Assembly (NCBI GenBank): GCA_016204465.1
Contig: JACQKQ010000023.1
Coordinates: 1-38,153, forward strand
Direction: 5' to 3'
DNA from: Candidatus Levyibacteriota bacterium
GTDB taxonomy: Bacteria > Patescibacteriota > Microgenomatia > Levybacterales > UBA12049
Length of the DNA: 38,153 nucleotides
In this document: positions 23,601 to 34,185 of the stretch, piece by piece
Layout of the letters: the number at the start of each line of letters is the position of its first letter
Numbering within the stretch: position 1 is the first letter of the stretch
Notes under the pieces: model-generated
Databases searched by the model: none
What the model saw: only the letters and a program-made list of their open reading frames with translations
Told to the model about the DNA's origin: nothing
Position numbers and translations under genes: made by a program

Positions 23601-24317
23601 ATGATATACATTGTTATATTTTTTCTTACTATTTTATTTGCCATGCTCCCCTCCTTAGCGCATGCAACAATTATGGCAAACAAGTTTTACAAACTTGATT
23701 TAGGCAATGCTAACACAACAGCAGGACTTACCCAAGATAAAAATTACAAGCTTGGCACTATGGTTGGTGAAAGTCCGGTTGGTATATTTAATGAAGCGCA
23801 GTATAAAGTTACCGCAGGTTTCTTCTTTGGCAGCAAAAAGAAAAATCCCTTCACCTTTACCCTTTCGCCGCTTTTGATAAGTTATGGACCGCTTTCTTCG
23901 ACAACGCCCGTTGTAAGAACGGCCAAAATTGCAGTCACCAATGAGTCCGCAAGCGGATTTTCCGTGCTTGGCTTTACAGATCACGTTTTACAAACAAAGG
24001 AGGGTGCAAGCATTCCTCATGTATCGTGCGACGATGGCCGGTGCACAAGTAAAAAGGCATCCTACTGGCAAAGCACGCTTACATACGGTTTTGGCTTCCG
24101 GTGTGACGGTAAGCTATGTCAATCGGATTTTCAGAATAAAAATAGCTTTCTCCCCTTTGCAGACGAATCTAGGACTGAATCACCTCAAACAATATTTAGC
24201 GCAAAACGTGGAAAAGATCAAAACGTAACAATAACGCTCAAAGTGAATACAAGCAGAGAACAGTCGCCTGGGCCATACCTAAACACAATCACCTTTATTG
24301 CTATTCCAACCCTATGA
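23601..24317 (+). CDS. Exported WxL-like surface protein (tentative)
   Basis: 238 residues with a signal peptide (about 1-22, cleavage near SLAHA). The rest is beta-rich. A segment from about residue 90 (FTFTLSPLLISYGPLSSTTP) to the end (GPYLNTITFIAIPTL) is laid out like the WxL cell-surface domain, although the WxL tryptophans are not conserved. One cysteine pair CDDGRC and another CDGKLC could form disulfides. The next gene encodes a DUF916-like protein, the usual partner of WxL proteins, which supports the guess. No sortase signal or membrane anchor. Confidence 0.5.
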   Translation: MIYIVIFFLTILFAMLPSLAHATIMANKFYKLDLGNANTTAGLTQDKNYKLGTMVGESPVGIFNEAQYKVTAGFFFGSKKKNPFTFTLSPLLISYGPLSSTTPVVRTAKIAVTNESASGFSVLGFTDHVLQTKEGASIPHVSCDDGRCTSKKASYWQSTLTYGFGFRCDGKLCQSDFQNKNSFLPFADESRTESPQTIFSAKRGKDQNVTITLKVNTSREQSPGPYLNTITFIAIPTL

Positions 24318-24320
24318 ACT

Positions 24321-24402
24321 AGTATTAAGTATTACGTAGTATGTATATAAATTGTATTAAATTAATTGCCGTTTTTTTGCTTACTACTTACTACTTAATA
24401 CT
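24321..24402 (+). repeat. Inverted word repeat around the start of the DUF916-like gene
   Basis: Left arm 24321-24342 (agtattaagtattacgtag, then tat) and right arm 24381-24402 (ttactacttactacttaata, then ct) are near inverse complements. The ATG at 24341 lies at the end of the left arm, and the right arm encodes LTTYYLIL of the signal peptide. In mRNA the hairpin would cover the start codon. Confidence 0.6.
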
Positions 24403-25321
24403 TCCTACTGATATACAAGCTGCATCGGTTTCGTTGGGGATCTATCCGCCGCTCACCGAGTTTGAAGTAACCCCGCCGGCAACAATCGACGAACCTATTA
24501 CTCTTCAAAATCTTAATAATATACCTATTACTCTCTCCGTTTCTCTACGGCCTTTCGTTGCGTCTACAAAAGCAAACGGCGAGGTGACTTTTCCTGCCGA
24601 TAATAGGGGCGTAGGCGTAAACCCGAACTTTCTTGACTACGTTTCGCTTTGGGAAAACACTAATCGCGTTAAAGAAGTAACACTTGCTCCAGGACAAGAG
24701 AAAATAGTTACTCTCCATATAGAAATTCCTGATAATGAATTCGCATCGGACTATTACTTTTCAATAATCTTTAGTAACAAAGTGGATCAACTATTAGAAA
24801 ACGATACTCTTACAAAAGATAATTTAACCATTATAAAAGGAGGAGTAGGAATAAACGTATTGCTTACTATTGGCCCAAAAAGCCGACCAAAAGGAGAGAT
24901 AGAAGAATTTAGCTCGCCTGCCTTTGTGCAGCAAGGGCCTGTGCCTTTTATCGTACGAGTAAAAAATACTGGCGAGCATCGAACGAAGGTAAAAGGAACA
25001 ATTCTTATTAAGAATATATTTAACCAATACATTGGAAAAATTGAAATTAAAGACACAAATATACTTACAAATGCAATAAGGCAACTTCAGATAGACAATG
25101 AGGATAGCATTCTCTGGAAAGAATCGTTTCTTATCGGCCGGTATACGGCTGTACTTACGCTTATGTTTTCCGAGCAAGGCCCTATTTTTACCCGCAGCAT
25201 TGTGTTTTATGCGTTCCCGCTCTATTTTTCCTTAGGCGTGTTTATTGCAATTATTCTTTTAGTTGTAATTAAGAAGCGTATCTACAAAAGGTTTCATATG
25301 TATAATCGACATAAAGCTTGA
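24341..25321 (+). CDS. DUF916-like envelope protein, signal peptide and C-terminal membrane helix
   Basis: 326 residues. Signal peptide (1-28, ending DIQAA), two beta-sandwich regions (about 30-150 and 155-270; LGIYPPLTEFEVTPPATI, VTLHIEIPDNEFASDYYFSI), one transmembrane helix (about 292-313) and a basic cytoplasmic tail KKRIYKRFHMYNRHK. The layout matches DUF916/WxL-interacting proteins of Gram-positive bacteria, which bind cell wall or WxL proteins. The signal peptide core is partly encoded by a word repeat. It follows the WxL-like gene by 23 nt. Confidence 0.65.
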   Translation: MYINCIKLIAVFLLTTYYLILPTDIQAASVSLGIYPPLTEFEVTPPATIDEPITLQNLNNIPITLSVSLRPFVASTKANGEVTFPADNRGVGVNPNFLDYVSLWENTNRVKEVTLAPGQEKIVTLHIEIPDNEFASDYYFSIIFSNKVDQLLENDTLTKDNLTIIKGGVGINVLLTIGPKSRPKGEIEEFSSPAFVQQGPVPFIVRVKNTGEHRTKVKGTILIKNIFNQYIGKIEIKDTNILTNAIRQLQIDNEDSILWKESFLIGRYTAVLTLMFSEQGPIFTRSIVFYAFPLYFSLGVFIAIILLVVIKKRIYKRFHMYNRHKA

Positions 25322-25999
25322 TAAGACAAGCTGTTCATTTTTAATTACCGATTTTTTCCCGATAATAAAAATCGAAAAAGAGGCTTTTCAGTCTAAATAT
25401 AACTATAACAATTTCTTCTCAAAACGAGTTTAGCACTTTGGTCTTTTGAAGCGAAATCAAACTGATTAGGGTTTGCTAGGCTGAAGTATGTAATTGAACC
25501 TCAAATCTTAATTAGATGTGCTTATAATTGCATTTTTTTGCCTTATCAATCTAAATACTAAGTAAAACATCTATAGCATTTACCTAGACTGTCTGCTAAT
25601 TTGGTTTTTTTGCAATTTTTTACTCTTATGTATCGTTTTTCAAAAACACAGAAAATAACGAAAAAAAATCAAATATTCCATTATAATGTATTTTCATACT
25701 TAAGCTCTTTAATAACCAGTTAGATTGCTATGAAAATATATTGTGAAAAGAAAATAGAATAAACGTAATCCGTGAAAAATCACTACAGCATTTTACGTTC
25801 ATTTTTCACATTATTTCATAGATAACTTTATCAGTATATAAAAATATCAAAATATATCAATAATCTGACTCTAGGCTCTTGACATTCTTCGATAATCCGC
25901 CTACGCTGATAGTGTATATATTCTATTGGTAAATGAATAATATGTATAATATGTATAATTCGAGGCTAAATTAAAATTTTCACGGATAGTCGCTCGGGA
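25322..25999. other. Long AT-rich spacer with interleaved inverted repeats and promoter
   Basis: 678 nt with no plausible gene, much more AT-rich than its surroundings. At 25728-25821 lie three pairs of arms: outer ctatgaaa / tttcatag (25728-25735 / 25814-25821), and inside aacgtaa / ttacgtt (25762-25768 / 25793-25799) interleaved with gtgaaaaat / atttttcac (25772-25780 / 25801-25809). The latter two cannot form at once except as a pseudoknot. Downstream are a TTGACA near 25879 and tandem tatgtataat words near 25940-25965 with TATAAT -10 matches, likely the promoter of the 26000 gene. Confidence 0.55.
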
Positions 26000-28900
26000 A
26001 TGACCGATTTAATACAAGCCTTTATTACACATTTAAAGAATCTTCCACAACCTGCCTCGAGCGCAACGGTGAAAAACTACGTTGCAGATATTAGGCAGTT
26101 TGTATATTGGTTTGAACAACAAAATCAAAGATCTTTTCTTCCCCAACTTGTAACCCCGCAAATATTTGACCAATACATAGCCTATCGGCGTGATCAAGAC
26201 GGACTTTCTTTACCAAGCATAAAACGCCACAAAGCATCTATTAGAAAATTCTTTGTGTTCTTACAAGATACGGGCACCATCGAGCATAGTCTTATTGCAC
26301 AAGAAGCAAAAATCTCTAAAACAAGCACGGATTTATGGCATTTGAGGTCATTTAAAGATTATCTTTACGAAAATCGGCTTAAGAGGAATACTATAACAAA
26401 CTATATCGCAGATATTCAACAATTTCTTGAGTGGCTCGAAGCTGTTACCGGTGCGCAAGACGCCTTTCTTGTGAGCGAAAAAGATCCGCTGCAAAAGATC
26501 TCTTCGTTTATTGTTGAGGAGTACAAAACAAGACTCCTTGGGGCAGGAATCTCGCCTGCATCGGTAAACCGAAAACTCTCCTCCATCCGCAAGTATACAG
26601 CTTGGCTCTATCAGCAAGGGATTATTGGCAAGTATGTAACGTTTTCCGACGTCGTTGTCGCTTCGCCACCGAACCTTTCGCCTTTGCCATCTGGCGGCCC
26701 CACACACGAAATCAACACCTTACCTGCTCTTCCCCCAGTGCGGCTTGTGCAGAAAGCAGTGCAAGCCGCCGATTCAGTATTTGAATGGCTCATCGTTGCA
26801 CCTGCAGCACGGGTTGTCGACCAGGCAATCTACGCGCTCTGGTACCTCAAAGGAAAACCAATCGCAACAACACCCAAATCCACGCTTCGGCCGCCTCTGT
26901 ACGACTTCACTATCGGAAACATCAAAAAAAGCCTGTACGCCCCGCATGCTATTTCCATAAAAGATGCTCCTTTGCATAAAAAATTGTTCTTTCATATACA
27001 TCAAAGTAGGCCAAAATGGTATAAAAAATATCATGAGTACGCCGTTGTTCATTATTTTCACTTTGCTATCTTAATTATTTCTATGGCTATTATAGGTGTA
27101 AGCCTAGGCAAAATTCTTTTCCCTACACCCAAGCAGGTTGTTATGGCAAATGCAGAGCCTGTCTCCCCGCCGCGTGTTCTTTCTTTTCAAGGAAGACTTA
27201 CCGATCCATCTGACAATCCAATTACACAGACTAAGTCAATTCGCTTCCGACTTTACAATTCCCAAACAGCTTCTGGCTCAGCCATGCTTTGGGAAGAAAT
27301 GCAAGATATCAAACCCGATCTAAATGGTATATTTGCCGTGCAGCTTGGCAAAAAAACAGCGATTGATCAGGCTGTTTTTGGCAACAACGACAGCGTTTAT
27401 CTTGGCATTGCAGTAGGATCCGATGAGGAGTTGCGGCCACGACACCAGCTTGCTACTGTTGCATATGCCACAAATGCCGAACTTTTACAAGGTCTGTTGC
27501 CAATCACGCAAGCTGGAGCCGGTAGCAAAAACGTTGTGCTTGCTTTAGATTCAACCGGAAATCTTTCAATCGGCGGCAGCGCAAACCCAATCTTTCAGGC
27601 AACAGGGGGAGAGTTTAAGCTCTCCGGTAAGTCGCTTGTGCTTGCAACAAATGTAGGTTCTAACGGTAACGTTTCTCTGTCTCCCGACGGTAAAGGTTTC
27701 ATCGACGCCCTTGCACCCATTCAGAATAGTTCAAATAATAACAACCTTGCAGCGGTACCGGGAGCAGTCGAAATCGATGATATATTAGCAATTTACGCAA
27801 CATCAAGTGCACATTCTGCTCTTGTTGTCGAGCAAAGCGGCACAGGACCAATCATTAGCGCTTCGACAAGCGGGACTGCTAAATTCACTCTTGGTAACGA
27901 TGGATCGGGGTATTTTGCCGGAAAACTTGGGATTGGTGTATCTTCAGCGTCGGCCAAACTTACTGTTGACGGCGCAAGTATAGGCAAAGCGCTTGCTATC
28001 CTTAATGAATCAGGCGACCAAAATATTCTCGTCGGCTCTGCTTCAGGCACGCTTAAGTTTTACTTTGATAGAAGCGGTAATTTAACGACAGCAAACGGAT
28101 CATTGTGGAAACCGACGTCTGATTCAACCACAGGGTTGCGAATTGGAAACTCGTCAGGGACATCGTTTGTTACATTTGACACTAGTAACAGTAGGGTTGG
28201 AATAGGTACTACCCCAAACTTTAAGCTCGATGTCACTGACAGCCAAAGCGCTACAGTTTCGGCAATGATTACTAACAGCAGTACAGATACAGATGCCGAT
28301 GTGCTTGCCCTTAAGCTTGGTATTACAACCGACCCAGCTGTAACGAACCGATTTTTAACATTTCTCAATGGCAATGGGACAATTGTTGGCAAGGTGCAAG
28401 GCAACGGCGCAAGCGGCGTTTCATACGCAACAGCGGGCGTAGACTTTGCCGAGTATTTTAAGAAACAAGATCAAACCGAAATCTTTTCTCCTTACGACCT
28501 TGTTTGCCTTGGAAATTCTGGTGTGACGAAGTGTGCGGGTAAAACACAAGTTATTGTTGGCGTTATTTCAAACCAAGCAGGGTTTATTGGCGGCGTAGAC
28601 CACGAAGGTGACCCAAAGTTTGTCCTTGTTGGTCTTAACGGACAACTGCGGGTGCGGGTAAAGAGCGAAACAATAAACGTTGGTGATCCATTAACAACGA
28701 GTTTAATACAATCTGTTGCAGAAAAAGCAACGACTGCCGGACAAATTGTCGGATACGCTATTGAATCATTTGACCCCACTAAAGACAGTAAAGATACTAT
28801 ATTAATAAGCGTTTCTCCCTCTTGGTATGACCCTAACGTTTTCCTAACACACACCGGCGACCTTAACGTTGTAAAAGACCAATCCAAAGTTGCCAAGCCT

Positions 28901-30208
28901 TCTTACTTTAGCGTACAAACAACATTAGGACAACTGGTCACAAAAGTTGGTGCATTTAGTAAGGCTGTGATTGGCGTCCTTGAGGTTGGCGCATTGAAAG
29001 CAAGCGAAATTTCAGCGCAGGAGATTATTTCGCCGATTGCTTCGATTGATCGTGTACGAACCGATGTTATCTCTCCTCTCTCATCAGAACAGCTTACGAT
29101 TCGATTGGCGTCCTCCTCTCTCTCGGCAGTTGAAATACAGAACGCGTCAGGCGCTGCAGTTGCTCGCATTGATCAAGAGGGCAATGCTTCATTTTCAGGG
29201 CAGTTGCTAAGCAAGGAGCTTACCGTACAAAATAACGCAAGCATCAGCGGGGTGCTTTACGCGCAGAAGATTATTGCAGACGAAGTTGAATTTCCTGTTG
29301 TTGCCACAAAAGCAAACCTTGCACAAGATTTCGAAACGCCAGTAGAATCGGCAACAGCCTCTGCAACTCTTGGCGAGACAATAGAGGCTAATTTCGCAAC
29401 CTTTACACAAGGGCTTATCGCATTTGGCCCAAGTAGTTTTGGCACGACTGCTATAAACGGTCAATTGTCTGTTGGTTCACCCACAGGGGGCTTGATACTT
29501 GCTGACAACGCGATTAATGTCTTAGGTGCTTCACTTGAACTACAACCCCTTAGGCAGGGAGATGTATCATTCTTAGGCGGTTTGGTGCAAATTGATATAG
29601 AAGGAAATTTGCGTGTTGATGGAAACGCGACATTTGGAAAGGACGTAACGGTAAAAGGGGAGATTTTTGCCAACGTCATTGCCCCAATCCCAGATAAAGA
29701 TTTAGTAATAAAACTTGAAGGAAGTAGAAGTGCCACATGTGCTACGAGCACAACGGGAAATGATGCTTGTGATACCAATGATACTTCTGATACTCGTGGT
29801 ACTCAATTCATTGTCCAGGATGCCTCCGGCAGCGGTGTTTTCAGTCTTGATCAGCAAGGCAATCTGACTGCTTCGGGATCAGCCAATGTCGCTAGCCTAC
29901 TCACGCAAACACTTCAAATTGCCCGAAATGCCCAAGCTGACACATCGCTTACTGAAACCACTGCGACAAGCTCTGCAGGCACAGCAACCATCTTGCCGGG
30001 AGAAAAGGAACGCACCGTATACACACCGTTTGTGAAAGAGAGTTCGCTTATCTACATTTCCCCAACCTCAAACACCTACGGCAAAAATCCCTACATTGCC
30101 AGACAAACGCCAAGCGACAGTGAACATGGTATCCTTGGCTCGTTTACGGTTGCGGTAGAAGAACGGCTGTCAAAACCAATTTCGCTAAACTGGTGGGTCG
30201 TAAATTAA
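26000..30208 (+). CDS. Giant membrane protein: two integrase SAM-like domains, TM helix, tail-fibre-like ectodomain
   Basis: 1402 residues. Residues ~3-95 and ~113-212 are two copies of the core-binding, SAM-like N-terminal domain of tyrosine recombinases (ATVKNYVADIRQFVYWFEQQ; NTITNYIADIQQFLEWLEAV; ASVNRKLSSIRKYTAWLYQQ). No catalytic R..HxxR..Y domain follows. A proline-rich linker leads to a transmembrane helix at ~353-374. Then comes a beta-rich region with VLSFQGRLTDPSDNPI, phage-fibre-like repeats (VGIGTTPNFKLDV, LGIGVSSASAKLTVDG), a DFAEYF...GVISNQAGFIGGV domain near 815-940, and a terminal LNWWVV. Such fibre domains are common in CPR surface proteins. With the helix, the N-terminus should be cytoplasmic and able to bind DNA, the rest outside. 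The segment CDTNDTSDTRGTQ (~29760-29810) is a word-repeat insert. Confidence 0.8.
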   Translation: MTDLIQAFITHLKNLPQPASSATVKNYVADIRQFVYWFEQQNQRSFLPQLVTPQIFDQYIAYRRDQDGLSLPSIKRHKASIRKFFVFLQDTGTIEHSLIAQEAKISKTSTDLWHLRSFKDYLYENRLKRNTITNYIADIQQFLEWLEAVTGAQDAFLVSEKDPLQKISSFIVEEYKTRLLGAGISPASVNRKLSSIRKYTAWLYQQGIIGKYVTFSDVVVASPPNLSPLPSGGPTHEINTLPALPPVRLVQKAVQAADSVFEWLIVAPAARVVDQAIYALWYLKGKPIATTPKSTLRPPLYDFTIGNIKKSLYAPHAISIKDAPLHKKLFFHIHQSRPKWYKKYHEYAVVHYFHFAILIISMAIIGVSLGKILFPTPKQVVMANAEPVSPPRVLSFQGRLTDPSDNPITQTKSIRFRLYNSQTASGSAMLWEEMQDIKPDLNGIFAVQLGKKTAIDQAVFGNNDSVYLGIAVGSDEELRPRHQLATVAYATNAELLQGLLPITQAGAGSKNVVLALDSTGNLSIGGSANPIFQATGGEFKLSGKSLVLATNVGSNGNVSLSPDGKGFIDALAPIQNSSNNNNLAAVPGAVEIDDILAIYATSSAHSALVVEQSGTGPIISASTSGTAKFTLGNDGSGYFAGKLGIGVSSASAKLTVDGASIGKALAILNESGDQNILVGSASGTLKFYFDRSGNLTTANGSLWKPTSDSTTGLRIGNSSGTSFVTFDTSNSRVGIGTTPNFKLDVTDSQSATVSAMITNSSTDTDADVLALKLGITTDPAVTNRFLTFLNGNGTIVGKVQGNGASGVSYATAGVDFAEYFKKQDQTEIFSPYDLVCLGNSGVTKCAGKTQVIVGVISNQAGFIGGVDHEGDPKFVLVGLNGQLRVRVKSETINVGDPLTTSLIQSVAEKATTAGQIVGYAIESFDPTKDSKDTILISVSPSWYDPNVFLTHTGDLNVVKDQSKVAKPSYFSVQTTLGQLVTKVGAFSKAVIGVLEVGALKASEISAQEIISPIASIDRVRTDVISPLSSEQLTIRLASSSLSAVEIQNASGAAVARIDQEGNASFSGQLLSKELTVQNNASISGVLYAQKIIADEVEFPVVATKANLAQDFETPVESATASATLGETIEANFATFTQGLIAFGPSSFGTTAINGQLSVGSPTGGLILADNAINVLGASLELQPLRQGDVSFLGGLVQIDIEGNLRVDGNATFGKDVTVKGEIFANVIAPIPDKDLVIKLEGSRSATCATSTTGNDACDTNDTSDTRGTQFIVQDASGSGVFSLDQQGNLTASGSANVASLLTQTLQIARNAQADTSLTETTATSSAGTATILPGEKERTVYTPFVKESSLIYISPTSNTYGKNPYIARQTPSDSEHGILGSFTVAVEERLSKPISLNWWVVN

Positions 30209-30209
30209 G

Positions 30210-31955
30210 CTAAGGTTTAAAACTACCCAAAAACTCTGTTAGGATTATAATTTTTCTTTCCGAGGTTCTCAAAGTTTGTGGCAAGTAATAATTATCTTTC
30301 ATATACCCATTTAGATCTTTAATCCAATCACTGACTAAATTGAAAAGTACGTCATAACAATTATCCCAACCTTCAGCTTGGTTTTTTTGCTTAAGATTCT
30401 CCAGGGCATTTGCAACCATCTCTGGCTTTAGTAGTTGCTGATAAATCAGATTCTTAAACAATACAGCAAGTCTTGGTCCGCTAATCTGCGATTTATCTAA
30501 AAAATCTGGAAATAATTTGCCAGCAAAAAGCATACGTACCAAACCTTCCTCGTCTCTAATAACGTCTGTAAATACATCTTCTCTGGTTGGAGTAAGGTTT
30601 TCCATATCGGAAATCTCACCCCTATAAGAAAGACGCAAGGGGTTTTCAGGGCTGATTGGCAAATCCGAATTAAAATCCGGCTTTCTTCCCTCGCTTTCAG
30701 CCTGAGATTTGGAAACTAAAGCTAAGCTTTCTAGCATCAATCTGTTAACTAGCGCCCTTTTTCTTTTTTCCTCTTCTTTCTTAGCTAATTTCAATCTTTC
30801 AAGCTCCTCTTTCTGATTTGCTCTTTCCTCGATTTGTTTTATTCTTTGTCCTACCAGCTCACGATAATCATTAGGCATGCCAAGAAGCGCGGAGGGGTTG
30901 CTAGATGCAAGTACGATACGCACCAGATCATCTATGCTGCCAAAAGATCTTCCTGGGTGTTCAATTTGTCTCCAGGTAGGAAATGAGCCGGAGAAATTAT
31001 TCATTAGAAAAGCTACATCGGCTGCTACATCGGCCCACCGCCCATTGCTCACAGCCTGCAGGACAGGGGACAAAAGCAGCGTCATTTCACTCGCTGGTAA
31101 AGATCCCCTCCTGAAAAATGCAATCTTTTTTAAGAGATCAGGCTGTTCTTCTGTTACCACTCTCCCACCGCTTTCTGCCACTATGTGCTGGAGTTGTATA
31201 ATCCTAGCAAGATAGCCAAGATGATAGAGAGCAGGACCAACTCTTTGCATCACGTACTTTGTTGCTTTTATAGGATCTTCTGAAGGAGATATATAAAACT
31301 CATGATCTCTAGGTCTTAAACGTACTAACTGTTCTTTAATAGAACCTATGGCTTTCGCTTTTGCCAGCTGCTCAAGAAAGATTAAATTAAAAAGTCTAAC
31401 TTCCGGATCTGCAAAAGAAAGCGCAAGATTTTGCCTTATGCGTAAGTATTTCCAATTCAACCCATCATGAGCTCCTCTCGCTTTTTCAACGGCTCTTTGG
31501 GGATTATTCAATTTATCAGCCAGTTCCCACGCATATTCGAATCTGGGAAGGGTCTCGTGAATAAAAGCAGCGTCAGCAATCAGCCCAAAAAACATATTAT
31601 TGTTACGTCCGCCAATTCTTCCTACTTCTGGTGGTATCTCGATAATAATTCCTCCATTAGGTGATAATTGAAATTTCTCTACTCTATTTCTCCCAGACTC
31701 GTAAGCCTCACCACTTTTTAATAATGTATTAATGCGATCTCTTAGCTGCTGCTCGGCTCCAGAGTTAGCTAAACAGTGGCTATAAACAATAGCATCGGTA
31801 AAAAGCGCTATTCCCTCCCTACAAAATTGAGTGACGGTTGTAATTTCTTCAGGATCGCTAGGCAGCCTTTGTAAATAACCGGTAATCTCTCCCTTGACAA
31901 CCTGCAATTTATCCCTGGGCGTTAGCGTATCGAAATTAGCTGATCGAGGCTCCAT
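30210..31955 (-). CDS. Large helical cytosolic protein, unknown
   Basis: 581 residues from the ATG at 31955. The start is set by a near-perfect promoter whose -10 box is 11 nt upstream; an upstream frame start at 31976 would lie inside the promoter. Mostly alpha-helical, with a charged coiled-coil stretch about two thirds in (IKQIEERANQKEELERLKLA, then KKEEEKRKRALVN). No signal peptide, membrane segment or known motif. It converges with the giant gene, the two stop codons being one base apart. I do not recognise the family. Confidence 0.75.
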   Translation of the reverse strand: MEPRSANFDTLTPRDKLQVVKGEITGYLQRLPSDPEEITTVTQFCREGIALFTDAIVYSHCLANSGAEQQLRDRINTLLKSGEAYESGRNRVEKFQLSPNGGIIIEIPPEVGRIGGRNNNMFFGLIADAAFIHETLPRFEYAWELADKLNNPQRAVEKARGAHDGLNWKYLRIRQNLALSFADPEVRLFNLIFLEQLAKAKAIGSIKEQLVRLRPRDHEFYISPSEDPIKATKYVMQRVGPALYHLGYLARIIQLQHIVAESGGRVVTEEQPDLLKKIAFFRRGSLPASEMTLLLSPVLQAVSNGRWADVAADVAFLMNNFSGSFPTWRQIEHPGRSFGSIDDLVRIVLASSNPSALLGMPNDYRELVGQRIKQIEERANQKEELERLKLAKKEEEKRKRALVNRLMLESLALVSKSQAESEGRKPDFNSDLPISPENPLRLSYRGEISDMENLTPTREDVFTDVIRDEEGLVRMLFAGKLFPDFLDKSQISGPRLAVLFKNLIYQQLLKPEMVANALENLKQKNQAEGWDNCYDVLFNLVSDWIKDLNGYMKDNYYLPQTLRTSERKIIILTEFLGSFKP

Positions 31956-31966
31956 AATAGTCTCAT

Positions 31967-31995
31967 AGTATATCATAGTTCCCGTCGGATTTCAA
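31967..31995 (-). promoter_or_regulatory. Promoter of the 581-residue protein gene
   Basis: Minus strand TTGAAA (31990-31995), 17-bp spacer, TATACT (31967-31972). The predicted start of transcription is about 5 nt before the ATG. Confidence 0.8.
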
Positions 31996-32005
31996 GCTTG
32001 GATTA

Positions 32006-32034
32006 TTGACATCAAATGCAAACTCGTGCATACT
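32006..32034 (+). promoter_or_regulatory. Promoter of the O-antigen-ligase-like gene
   Basis: TTGACA (32006-32011), 17-bp spacer, CATACT (32029-32034), 12 nt before the ATG at 32047. Back to back with the promoter at 31967-31995; the two -35 boxes are 10 bp apart. Confidence 0.75.
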
Positions 32035-32046
32035 AAATATCTATAT

Positions 32047-34185
32047 ATGAAAGCAAAGGAGGATATAAACGTCTACATTACTAACATTCTCCTCTTCCTG
32101 CTTGGCCTTGCGCTTCTTGCTTTTCCCCTTGTCTTTACGACACTTACGTCTGATAACTATGGCATTCCCAAACAAGCAATCCTTGGCGTTGTAAGTCTTT
32201 TGGGATTGATCTTCTTTGCCGCAAATACGCTCGTTTTTGGTAAGGTAAAGATTCGAAAGACCCCTTACGACCTTGCTCTGTTTCTTTTCACTCTTGCGGT
32301 TTTTCTTTCTGCTCTTTTCTCAACTAACCGCGCTGATGCGCTCATCGCGTTTACACCGCTTTTTTTTGTTATTCTCACATCGTTTTTAATAGTCAATGCA
32401 GCAAAGGAAAAGTCGTCGCTTCTGTTTTTGTTCACGATGTTTTTAATTGGCGCATGCACCGCAGCTGTATTTGCCCTTCTTTCTGTGTTTGGCATCCATT
32501 TGCTGCCAATACCGTTGACACAAACTCCAACTTTTACGCCGCTTGGCTCGTACTTGGACTTACTCCTTTTTCTTGTTGCCGCGTTTTTTATTGCTGTTTC
32601 GCTTGCACTACCAATAGTTGCTTTTCGGCAAATAGGGATTGAGAAGAAAACCATTGCAGCCATCTTTGCCAGTATTATTCTCTTTTTGGGTATTGGCGCA
32701 AGCGTGTATCAGCTTATGGGTAGCGGCCGTGTTGATATACTGCCAATTGGCACCGGCTTCCAAACCGCGTTTGCCGCAATTTCTCAAGATGCCAGCCGGC
32801 CGCTCCAAAGTTTTCTTTTTGGCAGTGGCATTGGCACCTTTGTTACAGACTTTACCCGGTTTAAAAACGCTATTTTTAACCAAACGGACGTATGGAATCT
32901 TACCTTCTACCGTTCATCAACCTATCTTTTAGAACTTTTGGCAACAACGGGATTGTTGGGCGCGGCAGGATTTATGTTTCTTCTCTTTACAATAGCTAAA
33001 AGCTTACGCTTACTGCAAAAGCCCCTTACGCGGATAAAAGAAAACCCTGTTTTTCTTTCTCTTGCCTTTTTAGCTTTTGCAGCACTTTTCTTGCCGTTTT
33101 CGTTTGTCTCACAGGCAACATTCTTTTTTGTTCTTGGCCTTTTTGCCGCAGCTTACGGGCTTTCGGACAAAGAGCGGTTTTTTGACATTGACCTCTACCT
33201 TTTTGCAGACAGAAAAGAGCAAAAACCGCAGCCGCAGCAGACAGTACATTTTGGTTTTGATACTTTCCTTACCCCTGCACACCAAAACGCGATGACTAAG
33301 TTTTTACCTGTAAGTTTCTTTATCGTGTCCATCCTGCTTACCGGCGTTATCGGCTTTTACAGTACGTTTCTTCTCCTCTCCGATCTTGCCTTCCAGCGCT
33401 CGTTTACTGCGTACGGCGCACGGGACAGCCTAAAAACCTACAACGAGCAACGTGCCGCTATTGCCATGTTTCCCTACCGAGACGGATACTACCGTGTTTA
33501 CTCCCAGTTTACGCTTGAACTTGCAAGTTCTCTTCTTGCCTCAATCGCAAAAGAAAAGTCGCCCAATCAGCGCGTACAACGCACCATCTACGACCTCATT
33601 CAGGATTCGATCAACGCCGCAAGGTCGGCAACAACCCTTTCTCCCTTGACTGTTACCAACTGGCAAAATTTAGCTGCAATTTATAGAAATCTGATTGGAT
33701 TTGGGAAGGATGCTGAAAATTTTGCCATTGCTTCGGCAAAGCGCGCTATAAGTCTTGATCCAAATAACCCACAAGCCTACATTAACCTTGGCGGGATTTA
33801 CTACCAGCTTGGCCGCTGGGAAGACGCACAGAGACAGTTTCAGATAGCAGTGAGCCTAAAACCCGACTTTGCCAACGCTCACTACAACCTTGGCCATGCT
33901 CTTGAGCAGAAAGGGGATATTGAACTAGCCCTCCAAGAATACGAAGTTGTAAAAAGCCTCACGGCAAAAGAAAAAAGCAGCAATAAAAAGATTACGGAAG
34001 AAATTGAGGCGTTACAAACAAAGATTGGTGAGGCAAAAACTGCCTCTCCAAGCAGTCAGCTTACCGCAAAACAAGTAGAACAGCCGCCGCTTAGCATCAG
34101 CACGCCAAGCGCAACACTCCCCTCGCAAAACCCGCCGGTTGCCATCCCCGCTCCCAATGTTGCCACGCAGTCTGCAGAACAATAA
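32047..34185 (+). CDS. O-antigen ligase/Wzy-like membrane protein with TPR tail
   Basis: 712 residues from the ATG at 32047 (a GTG at 32026 would lie upstream of the -10 box). About eleven to twelve membrane helices in residues 10-455, with a large outer loop bearing SFLFGSGIGTFVTDFTRF as in the Wzy_C/O-antigen ligase family. Then comes a cytoplasmic or outer TPR region (about 545-650: ISLDPNNPQAYINLGGIYYQ; LKPDFANAHYNLGHALEQKG) and a Pro/Ser-rich tail. It probably polymerises or transfers surface glycans, or glycosylates surface proteins. It has its own promoter. Confidence 0.85.
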   Translation: MKAKEDINVYITNILLFLLGLALLAFPLVFTTLTSDNYGIPKQAILGVVSLLGLIFFAANTLVFGKVKIRKTPYDLALFLFTLAVFLSALFSTNRADALIAFTPLFFVILTSFLIVNAAKEKSSLLFLFTMFLIGACTAAVFALLSVFGIHLLPIPLTQTPTFTPLGSYLDLLLFLVAAFFIAVSLALPIVAFRQIGIEKKTIAAIFASIILFLGIGASVYQLMGSGRVDILPIGTGFQTAFAAISQDASRPLQSFLFGSGIGTFVTDFTRFKNAIFNQTDVWNLTFYRSSTYLLELLATTGLLGAAGFMFLLFTIAKSLRLLQKPLTRIKENPVFLSLAFLAFAALFLPFSFVSQATFFFVLGLFAAAYGLSDKERFFDIDLYLFADRKEQKPQPQQTVHFGFDTFLTPAHQNAMTKFLPVSFFIVSILLTGVIGFYSTFLLLSDLAFQRSFTAYGARDSLKTYNEQRAAIAMFPYRDGYYRVYSQFTLELASSLLASIAKEKSPNQRVQRTIYDLIQDSINAARSATTLSPLTVTNWQNLAAIYRNLIGFGKDAENFAIASAKRAISLDPNNPQAYINLGGIYYQLGRWEDAQRQFQIAVSLKPDFANAHYNLGHALEQKGDIELALQEYEVVKSLTAKEKSSNKKITEEIEALQTKIGEAKTASPSSQLTAKQVEQPPLSISTPSATLPSQNPPVAIPAPNVATQSAEQ

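Follow-up and report, generated by a model that had tools for sequence, protein, structure and literature searches.

What would a surface fibre do with two core-binding (CB) domains of the Xer recombinase type at its inner end? The question is raised by a gene of a Candidatus Levyibacteriota bacterium (assembly GCA_016204465.1), located at 26000..30208 (+ strand) of the window, which comprises the 38,153 nucleotides of contig JACQKQ010000023.1 that were analysed. The gene is an uninterrupted frame of 1402 amino acids (aa), and its product was characterized with Pfam, NCBIfam and AlphaFold as two CB domains followed by a transmembrane (TM) helix and a fibre (CB-CB-TM-fibre). An earlier, sequence-only reading had described a layout of this kind and suggested that the protein anchors the chromosome, binds incoming DNA next to ComEA/ComEC or senses the state of DNA at the envelope. 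The answer that we favour, with modest confidence and from comparisons of sequence, is that the inner end of the fibre binds an operator of its own gene, which would make the protein a membrane-tethered autoregulator.

The two tandem SAM-like domains of the sequence-only reading were recovered by Pfam, AlphaFold and Foldseek alike (domain 1, residues 2-90, 26003..26269, +; domain 2, residues 115-205, 26342..26614, +). The Pfam matches, Phage_int_SAM_4 (residues 4-85) and Phage_int_SAM_1 (117-207), both exceed the cut-off. In an AlphaFold model built on a 26-row alignment, the first domain comprises helices 2-13, 21-42, 53-65 and 71-90 and the second comprises helices 115-124, 129-150, 169-181 and 186-205, mostly at predicted local distance difference test (pLDDT) values >90. 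The top Foldseek matches in the PDB were CB domains, including the N-domain of a haloarchaeal integrase (3nrw, TMt 0.73), XerA (5hxy, ~88 columns at 1.4 A, prob 1.00), Cre, IntI and Tn1549 Int; Foldseek E-values were weak (best 0.026) because ~90 of the 427 residues align. No Phage_integrase catalytic domain was detected by Pfam in the 1402-aa protein, and the NCBIfam XerC/XerD models align with it via their N-terminal ends only. PF00589 matches at two places in the whole genome, frames of 314 and 293 aa on contigs C35 and C39, which are true Xer-type tyrosine recombinases and both lie off this contig; thus no R-H-R-Y catalytic domain is concealed at the fibre locus.

One clear membrane segment was detected by hydropathy (356-374, Kyte-Doolittle (KD) 2.35), and AlphaFold models a single helix at residues 348-373 (27041..27118, +). 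Charge and alignments define a basic cytoplasmic juxtamembrane region before it (residues 226-352, 26675..27055, +). The net charge is +15 N-terminal of the membrane segment and -28 C-terminal of it, and the positive side before the segment indicates an N-in/C-out topology, with the CB domains inside and the fibre outside. Fold and topology therefore agree with the proposal of a single polypeptide that joins a cytoplasmic, apparently DNA-competent CB pair to an outside fibre. Three findings had been named beforehand as fatal to that proposal, a non-SAM N-terminus, an absent helix and a concealed catalytic domain, and none of them was encountered.

The extracellular fibre (residues 375-1402, ~1000 aa, 27122..30205, +) was recognised by Pfam and NCBIfam. 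It begins with an FQGRLTD domain like that of mosaic adhesive trimer (MAT) proteins (Bdello_MAT_N-like, 389-454; 30.8 bits, E 2e-7, under the NCBIfam cut-off of 60) and contains a Peptidase_G2 chaperone region (795-865; 31.7 bits, over the Pfam cut-off). The Peptidase_G2/Peptidase_S74 chaperone matches are compatible with a trimer, and the outer fibre is probably an adhesin that is trimeric and binds a host or a surface. The tail-fibre-like beta repeats of the sequence-only reading are thus fibre-like (Bdello_MAT_N-like, Peptidase_G2), and their phage sense found no support in PHROGs, in which the fibre tail had no match. A prophage tail fibre was rejected on this ground, on the core neighbours of the gene (leuS, comEC) and on the viral contigs, which carry ordinary integrases only.

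The fusion recurs in dozens of independent genomes, which rules out a chance or chimeric open reading frame (ORF). Some match at E<=1e-3 was found in 51 of the 73 genomes of the family (Levybacteria), and by our own count ~44 of the 73 have a CB/fibre protein, not merely an Xer, with 29 lacking one. The search for the same fusion and its neighbours that had been suggested at the outset was thus productive, the neighbours being secreted, WxL-interacting-type and TPR proteins. Named genomes with relatives are mostly Candidatus Levybacteria/Levyibacteriota, and all four genomes found of a sister family (f2) also have the fusion. Fused relatives align across the whole 1-427 module with ~27-43% identity, residues 303-427 being the best-conserved stretch in several of them (44-54% identity), and their tails range from <1,000 to ~3,900 aa, the longest in complete relatives. 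Throughout the class Microgenomatia the CB domains remain tied to the fibre, either fused or adjacent. A sample of the phylum outside Microgenomatia yielded nothing at E<=1e-15 but one 292-aa, Xer-sized frame.

The DNA contact positions of CB domains, which we take from Cre to be T-x-K-N in helix B and S/T..R in helix D, have equivalents in both domains. The first keeps T23, K25, N26, S73 and R76 and the second keeps T131, N134, S188, R191 and K192; residue 133 is T in the window protein and K in 33 of 34 aligned sequences. All 34 sequences have N26, R76, N134 and R191. Mean entropy was 0.53 bits at contact-equivalent polar positions vs. 2.33 bits at other polar CB positions (P 1e-6). This pattern suggests that the cytoplasmic CB pair is apparently DNA-competent.

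The DNA that such a head would read may lie directly before the gene. The proposed operator is a tandem direct repeat, ATAATAT GTATAATAT GTATAAT T CGAGGCTA (25937..25968, +), which in the window reads ATAATnnGTATAATnnGTATAAT..CGaGGCTA, is ~32 bp long and ends 31 nt ahead of the ATG. Aligned 5' regions gave the consensus ATAA(T)nn-GTATAATnn-GTATAATYT-yGdGGCTA, direct and with a period of 9, as well as a conserved promoter, TTGACA - 17 nt - TACGCT (25879..25907, +). The repeat lies ~30 nt 3' of the -10, and its placement between a TTGACA-N17-TAnnCT promoter and the start codon is class-wide. Lying 3' of the promoter, it falls in the early transcribed region, a classic position for a repressor.

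The repeat accompanies the gene closely. A position weight matrix (PWM) scanned over 1.05 Mb of loci gave 58 matches, and a script placed 51 of these upstream of a CB gene; the matrix was trained on part of the scanned loci, so that pattern searches are the cleaner test. The remaining seven are also at CB genes by manual reading: four in translated starts (f7-type loci), two 5' of a mis-called start and one at locus L049, ~480 nt upstream on the opposite strand. The genome of the window contains one perfect match, and its next best has 3 mismatches, equal to a reversed-pattern control. Exactly one site, each time at the CB gene, was found in 37 of the 73 family genomes, and none of the 29 family genomes without a CB/fibre gene has a site (Fisher 4e-14; control matches, 1). 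Among 233 genomes of the class there were 24 exact matches, 23 at CB genes (control matches, 2). In f7, L187 and L200 the repeat is translated (YNxYNxEA or similar), and all 34 of the Tyr/Asn codons concerned are TAT/AAT (P ~7e-7, the loci being non-independent), so the DNA or RNA letters themselves matter. The coding location in these loci and the separate TTGACA-N17-TAnnCT promoter counter the idea that the repeat is a mere set of -10 boxes.

Other features were observed around the repeat. Both units are shifted from GTATAAT to GTCTAAT/GTCTAAC in L202, L204 and L216, as though the reader protein had changed specificity. In L190, L198, L202, L204 and L220 a micro-ORF of 40-50 aa with a single membrane helix separates the repeat from the CB gene. 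Conserved elements are also present 5' of the promoter (25743-25749, 25772-25778 and 25803-25809 in the window; -100 to -230 from the repeat in Levybacterales loci), namely TTTTCAC/GTGAAAA in both orientations and ATATATCA-type AT repeats. These elements are likely sites of other regulators.

The inner arm of E. coli dif is CATAA/TTATG. In the structure of the XerH-difH complex, most base-specific contacts come from the N-terminal domain, and reading is specific over the 5 inner bp of each arm (PMC5241119). The CB domains are likely readers of the repeat because its ATAA(T) core matches the inner dif arm read by the Xer N-terminal domain and because tandem domains fit a tandem repeat. According to the autoregulator model, the cytoplasmic end of the fibre captured two Xer CB domains without the catalytic domain and so may have gained a site-specific DNA-binding head, which would recognise, downstream of the promoter and ahead of the start of its own gene, the tandem ATAAT / GTATAAT / GTATAAT repeat. 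We infer that binding from the membrane would most likely adjust the transcription of the gene, with repression the probable sign judging from the position of the repeat. The input would be the amount of fibre made, inserted or engaged (copy number, insertion, contact), and the protein would work like ToxR or CadC with the fibre as its outer domain.

A DNA-binding head anchored in the membrane and a single genome-unique site in cis would also suit tethering, in which the CB domains bind the repeat to hold the fibre gene at the membrane, so that synthesis and insertion of a very long fibre happen at a single place, with no control of transcription. Fibre genes are very long in complete relatives (up to ~3,900 aa). 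Tethering has no need, however, for a class-wide site placement between promoter and start codon, and the fibre protein here has only 1402 aa; we regard this explanation as rather improbable. It is very doubtful that the locus is a relic of a system for site-specific inversion or integration, with the repeat as an Xer/integrase site and the CB domains as left-overs of a lost recombinase. The CB domains derive from tyrosine recombinases, true Xer-type enzymes are encoded elsewhere in the genome, and xerS adjoins difSL in other bacteria (PMC5357621), but the repeats here are direct rather than inverted, a single copy per genome leaves no partner site, the CB domains are strongly constrained and linked to the fibre class-wide, and the integrases of the viral contigs are ordinary ones.

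The second CB domain is divided between two adjacent genes at ~18 loci from many families of the class, always in the same loop between helices B and C (split in L186, L187, L188, L193, L198, L200, L205, L217 and L220, for example, and fused in L189, L191, L192, L202 and L204). Sequence comparison and AlphaFold place the split point at 26450..26503 (+) in the window, where it matches the modelled loop 151-168. Split gene 1 (150-200 aa) encodes a complete CB domain and helices A-B of a second, ending ...TIKNYLSDIRQFLNWA or equivalent, and split gene 2 encodes helices C-D (...SPxSIxRKLSSLKKF...) and then the membrane helix and the fibre. In-frame pairs are spaced by TAAATG (gap 0), 3, 9, 15 or 18 nt, and other pairs overlap or are out of frame; all three stop codons are used, with start codons directly after. 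The three stop types and the variable spacing indicate two coupled genes, and together with the out-of-frame and overlapping pairs they leave stop-codon readthrough or recoding unsupported. Families f18 and f22 each hold both fused and split forms, so the change occurred more than once. In family f7 (L207, L209, L210 and L211), a conserved ORF of ~50-60 aa with a motif like WxDPAxEGNPY lies between gene 1 and gene 2.

In these other Microgenomatia families the second CB domain would belong partly to a small soluble protein and partly to the fibre, and it may fold only once both proteins meet. A tentative extension of the autoregulator model, which we consider possible at most, is a new surface-to-gene circuit in which an adhesive fibre regulates its own gene by binding DNA and, where the families are split, carries half of a DNA-binding domain that a small soluble partner has to complete, so that binding would report insertion, assembly or contact. 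The split of the domain also suggests a docking role, and a second explanation is that the CB domains are structural, acting in assembly, trimerisation or partner docking without reading DNA, while an unlinked regulator of the fibre operon uses the repeat as its operator. The probably trimeric fibre (MAT-like and Peptidase_G2 matches) and the second CB domain of f7, which lacks its contact motifs, are consistent with such a role. We consider it unlikely, since the contact-equivalent residues rank with the best-conserved positions of the whole protein, the site was never found without the gene and the repeat is similar to the inner arm of dif.

Several observations weigh against autoregulation. 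Three repeats with a 9-bp period have no simple one-to-one match with two CB domains, and another, unlinked regulator could read the repeat. The TATAAT within the motif makes a promoter function conceivable. In seven family genomes the gene is present but no site was found at the stringency used; some of these are explained by contig ends or 2 mismatches, and in others the site is apparently diverged or absent. No recognisable repeat was found at L195, L197 and L199. The f7 clade lost both motifs of the second CB domain and also the third repeat, a covariation that is suggestive only, being a single evolutionary event. The membrane-tethered autoregulator is nonetheless the most economical model, with gene tethering and purely structural CB domains as possible alternatives.

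The conserved neighbours of the gene, identified by neighbourhood comparison, are a secreted protein (23601..24317, +), a WxL-interacting-type (WxLIP_PGBD) membrane protein upstream (24341..25321, +) and a TPR protein downstream (32026..34185, +). The class-wide order is secreted protein, WxL-interacting-type protein, promoter and repeat, CB/fibre gene and often the TPR protein, and this conserved unit looks like a surface-structure operon. The 23601-24317 product has weak similarity to the NCBIfam candidate phyla radiation (CPR) Pam pilus proteins PamT and Pam pilin (25 bits, far under the cut-offs). A 588-aa protein encoded between the fibre and TPR genes (30210-31976, -) has no Pfam or NCBIfam match, and no counterpart turned up at the related loci examined. 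Rfam detected no family besides tRNA in the window.

The leuS and com genes run the opposite way, with comEC/comEA beyond leuS in many relatives. Their nearness and the cytoplasmic DNA-binding fold could speak for the first two uses put forward in the sequence-only reading, a general chromosome anchor or the capture of incoming DNA beside ComEA/ComEC. Both are highly unlikely. The only candidate target is the repeat at the 5' end of the protein's own gene, unique to that promoter region, rather than bulk or incoming DNA; the com genes belong to an opposite transcription unit past leuS; and the CB domains face the cytoplasm. The third use, sensing at the envelope, came closest to the regulation there that the model proposes.

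No known family admits the protein. It shares with Xer and other tyrosine recombinases (XerC, XerD, XerH, XerA and Cre) the SAM-like CB fold, the contact-equivalent residues and an ATAA-type target core. Those enzymes have the R-H-R-Y catalytic domain (PF00589) and, in the case of Xer, sites that are inverted repeats, whereas the fibre protein has two tandem CB domains joined in one chain with a membrane helix and a fibre, no catalytic domain and a candidate site that is a single-copy direct repeat. With the ToxR/CadC-type membrane one-component regulators (PMC5430869; PMC7496328) it shares an N-in DNA-binding head, a single TM helix and an outer C-terminal domain in one chain. The candidate operator next to the promoter is a further likeness, regulation from the membrane being suggested here by position only. 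The ToxR/CadC-type DNA-binding fold is a winged helix (Trans_reg_C), in contrast to the SAM-like CB domains that Pfam found here, and the ~1000-aa fibre outside, the one candidate site per genome at the protein's own gene and the split-gene forms also set it apart. With the MAT fibres of Bdellovibrio (PMC10769870; NCBIfam NF053851) it shares the FQGRLTD-type fibre start and the chimeric layout. The score of 30.8 against the NF053851 cut-off of 60 bits indicates a distant relationship only, and the family definition includes no cytoplasmic DNA-binding head; here a membrane helix on its N-terminal side anchors the fibre. Catalysis and site symmetry thus exclude Xer, the DNA-binding fold excludes ToxR/CadC and the score excludes MAT. 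Nothing relevant to the CB-CB-TM-fibre layout was found in the open-access literature, and newness within that scope rests on the layout and the split. If the tethered-regulator model is confirmed, a far variant of the ToxR-like regulators would be an equally fair name.

The locus represents a non-catalytic use of Xer CB domains, and the repeated division of a DNA-binding domain over two adjacent genes seems to be a natural example of fold complementation, and an unusual one. The proposed circuit is compact and testable: its protein head is defined, and its candidate operator of ~32 bp occurs only once in most of the genomes that were examined. Microgenomatia are tiny, probably host-dependent bacteria, and to our knowledge the regulation of host attachment in Patescibacteria is little understood. 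If the model is true, a structural surface fibre would be wired straight to the DNA before its own gene, and no separate protein would act as sensor or regulator.

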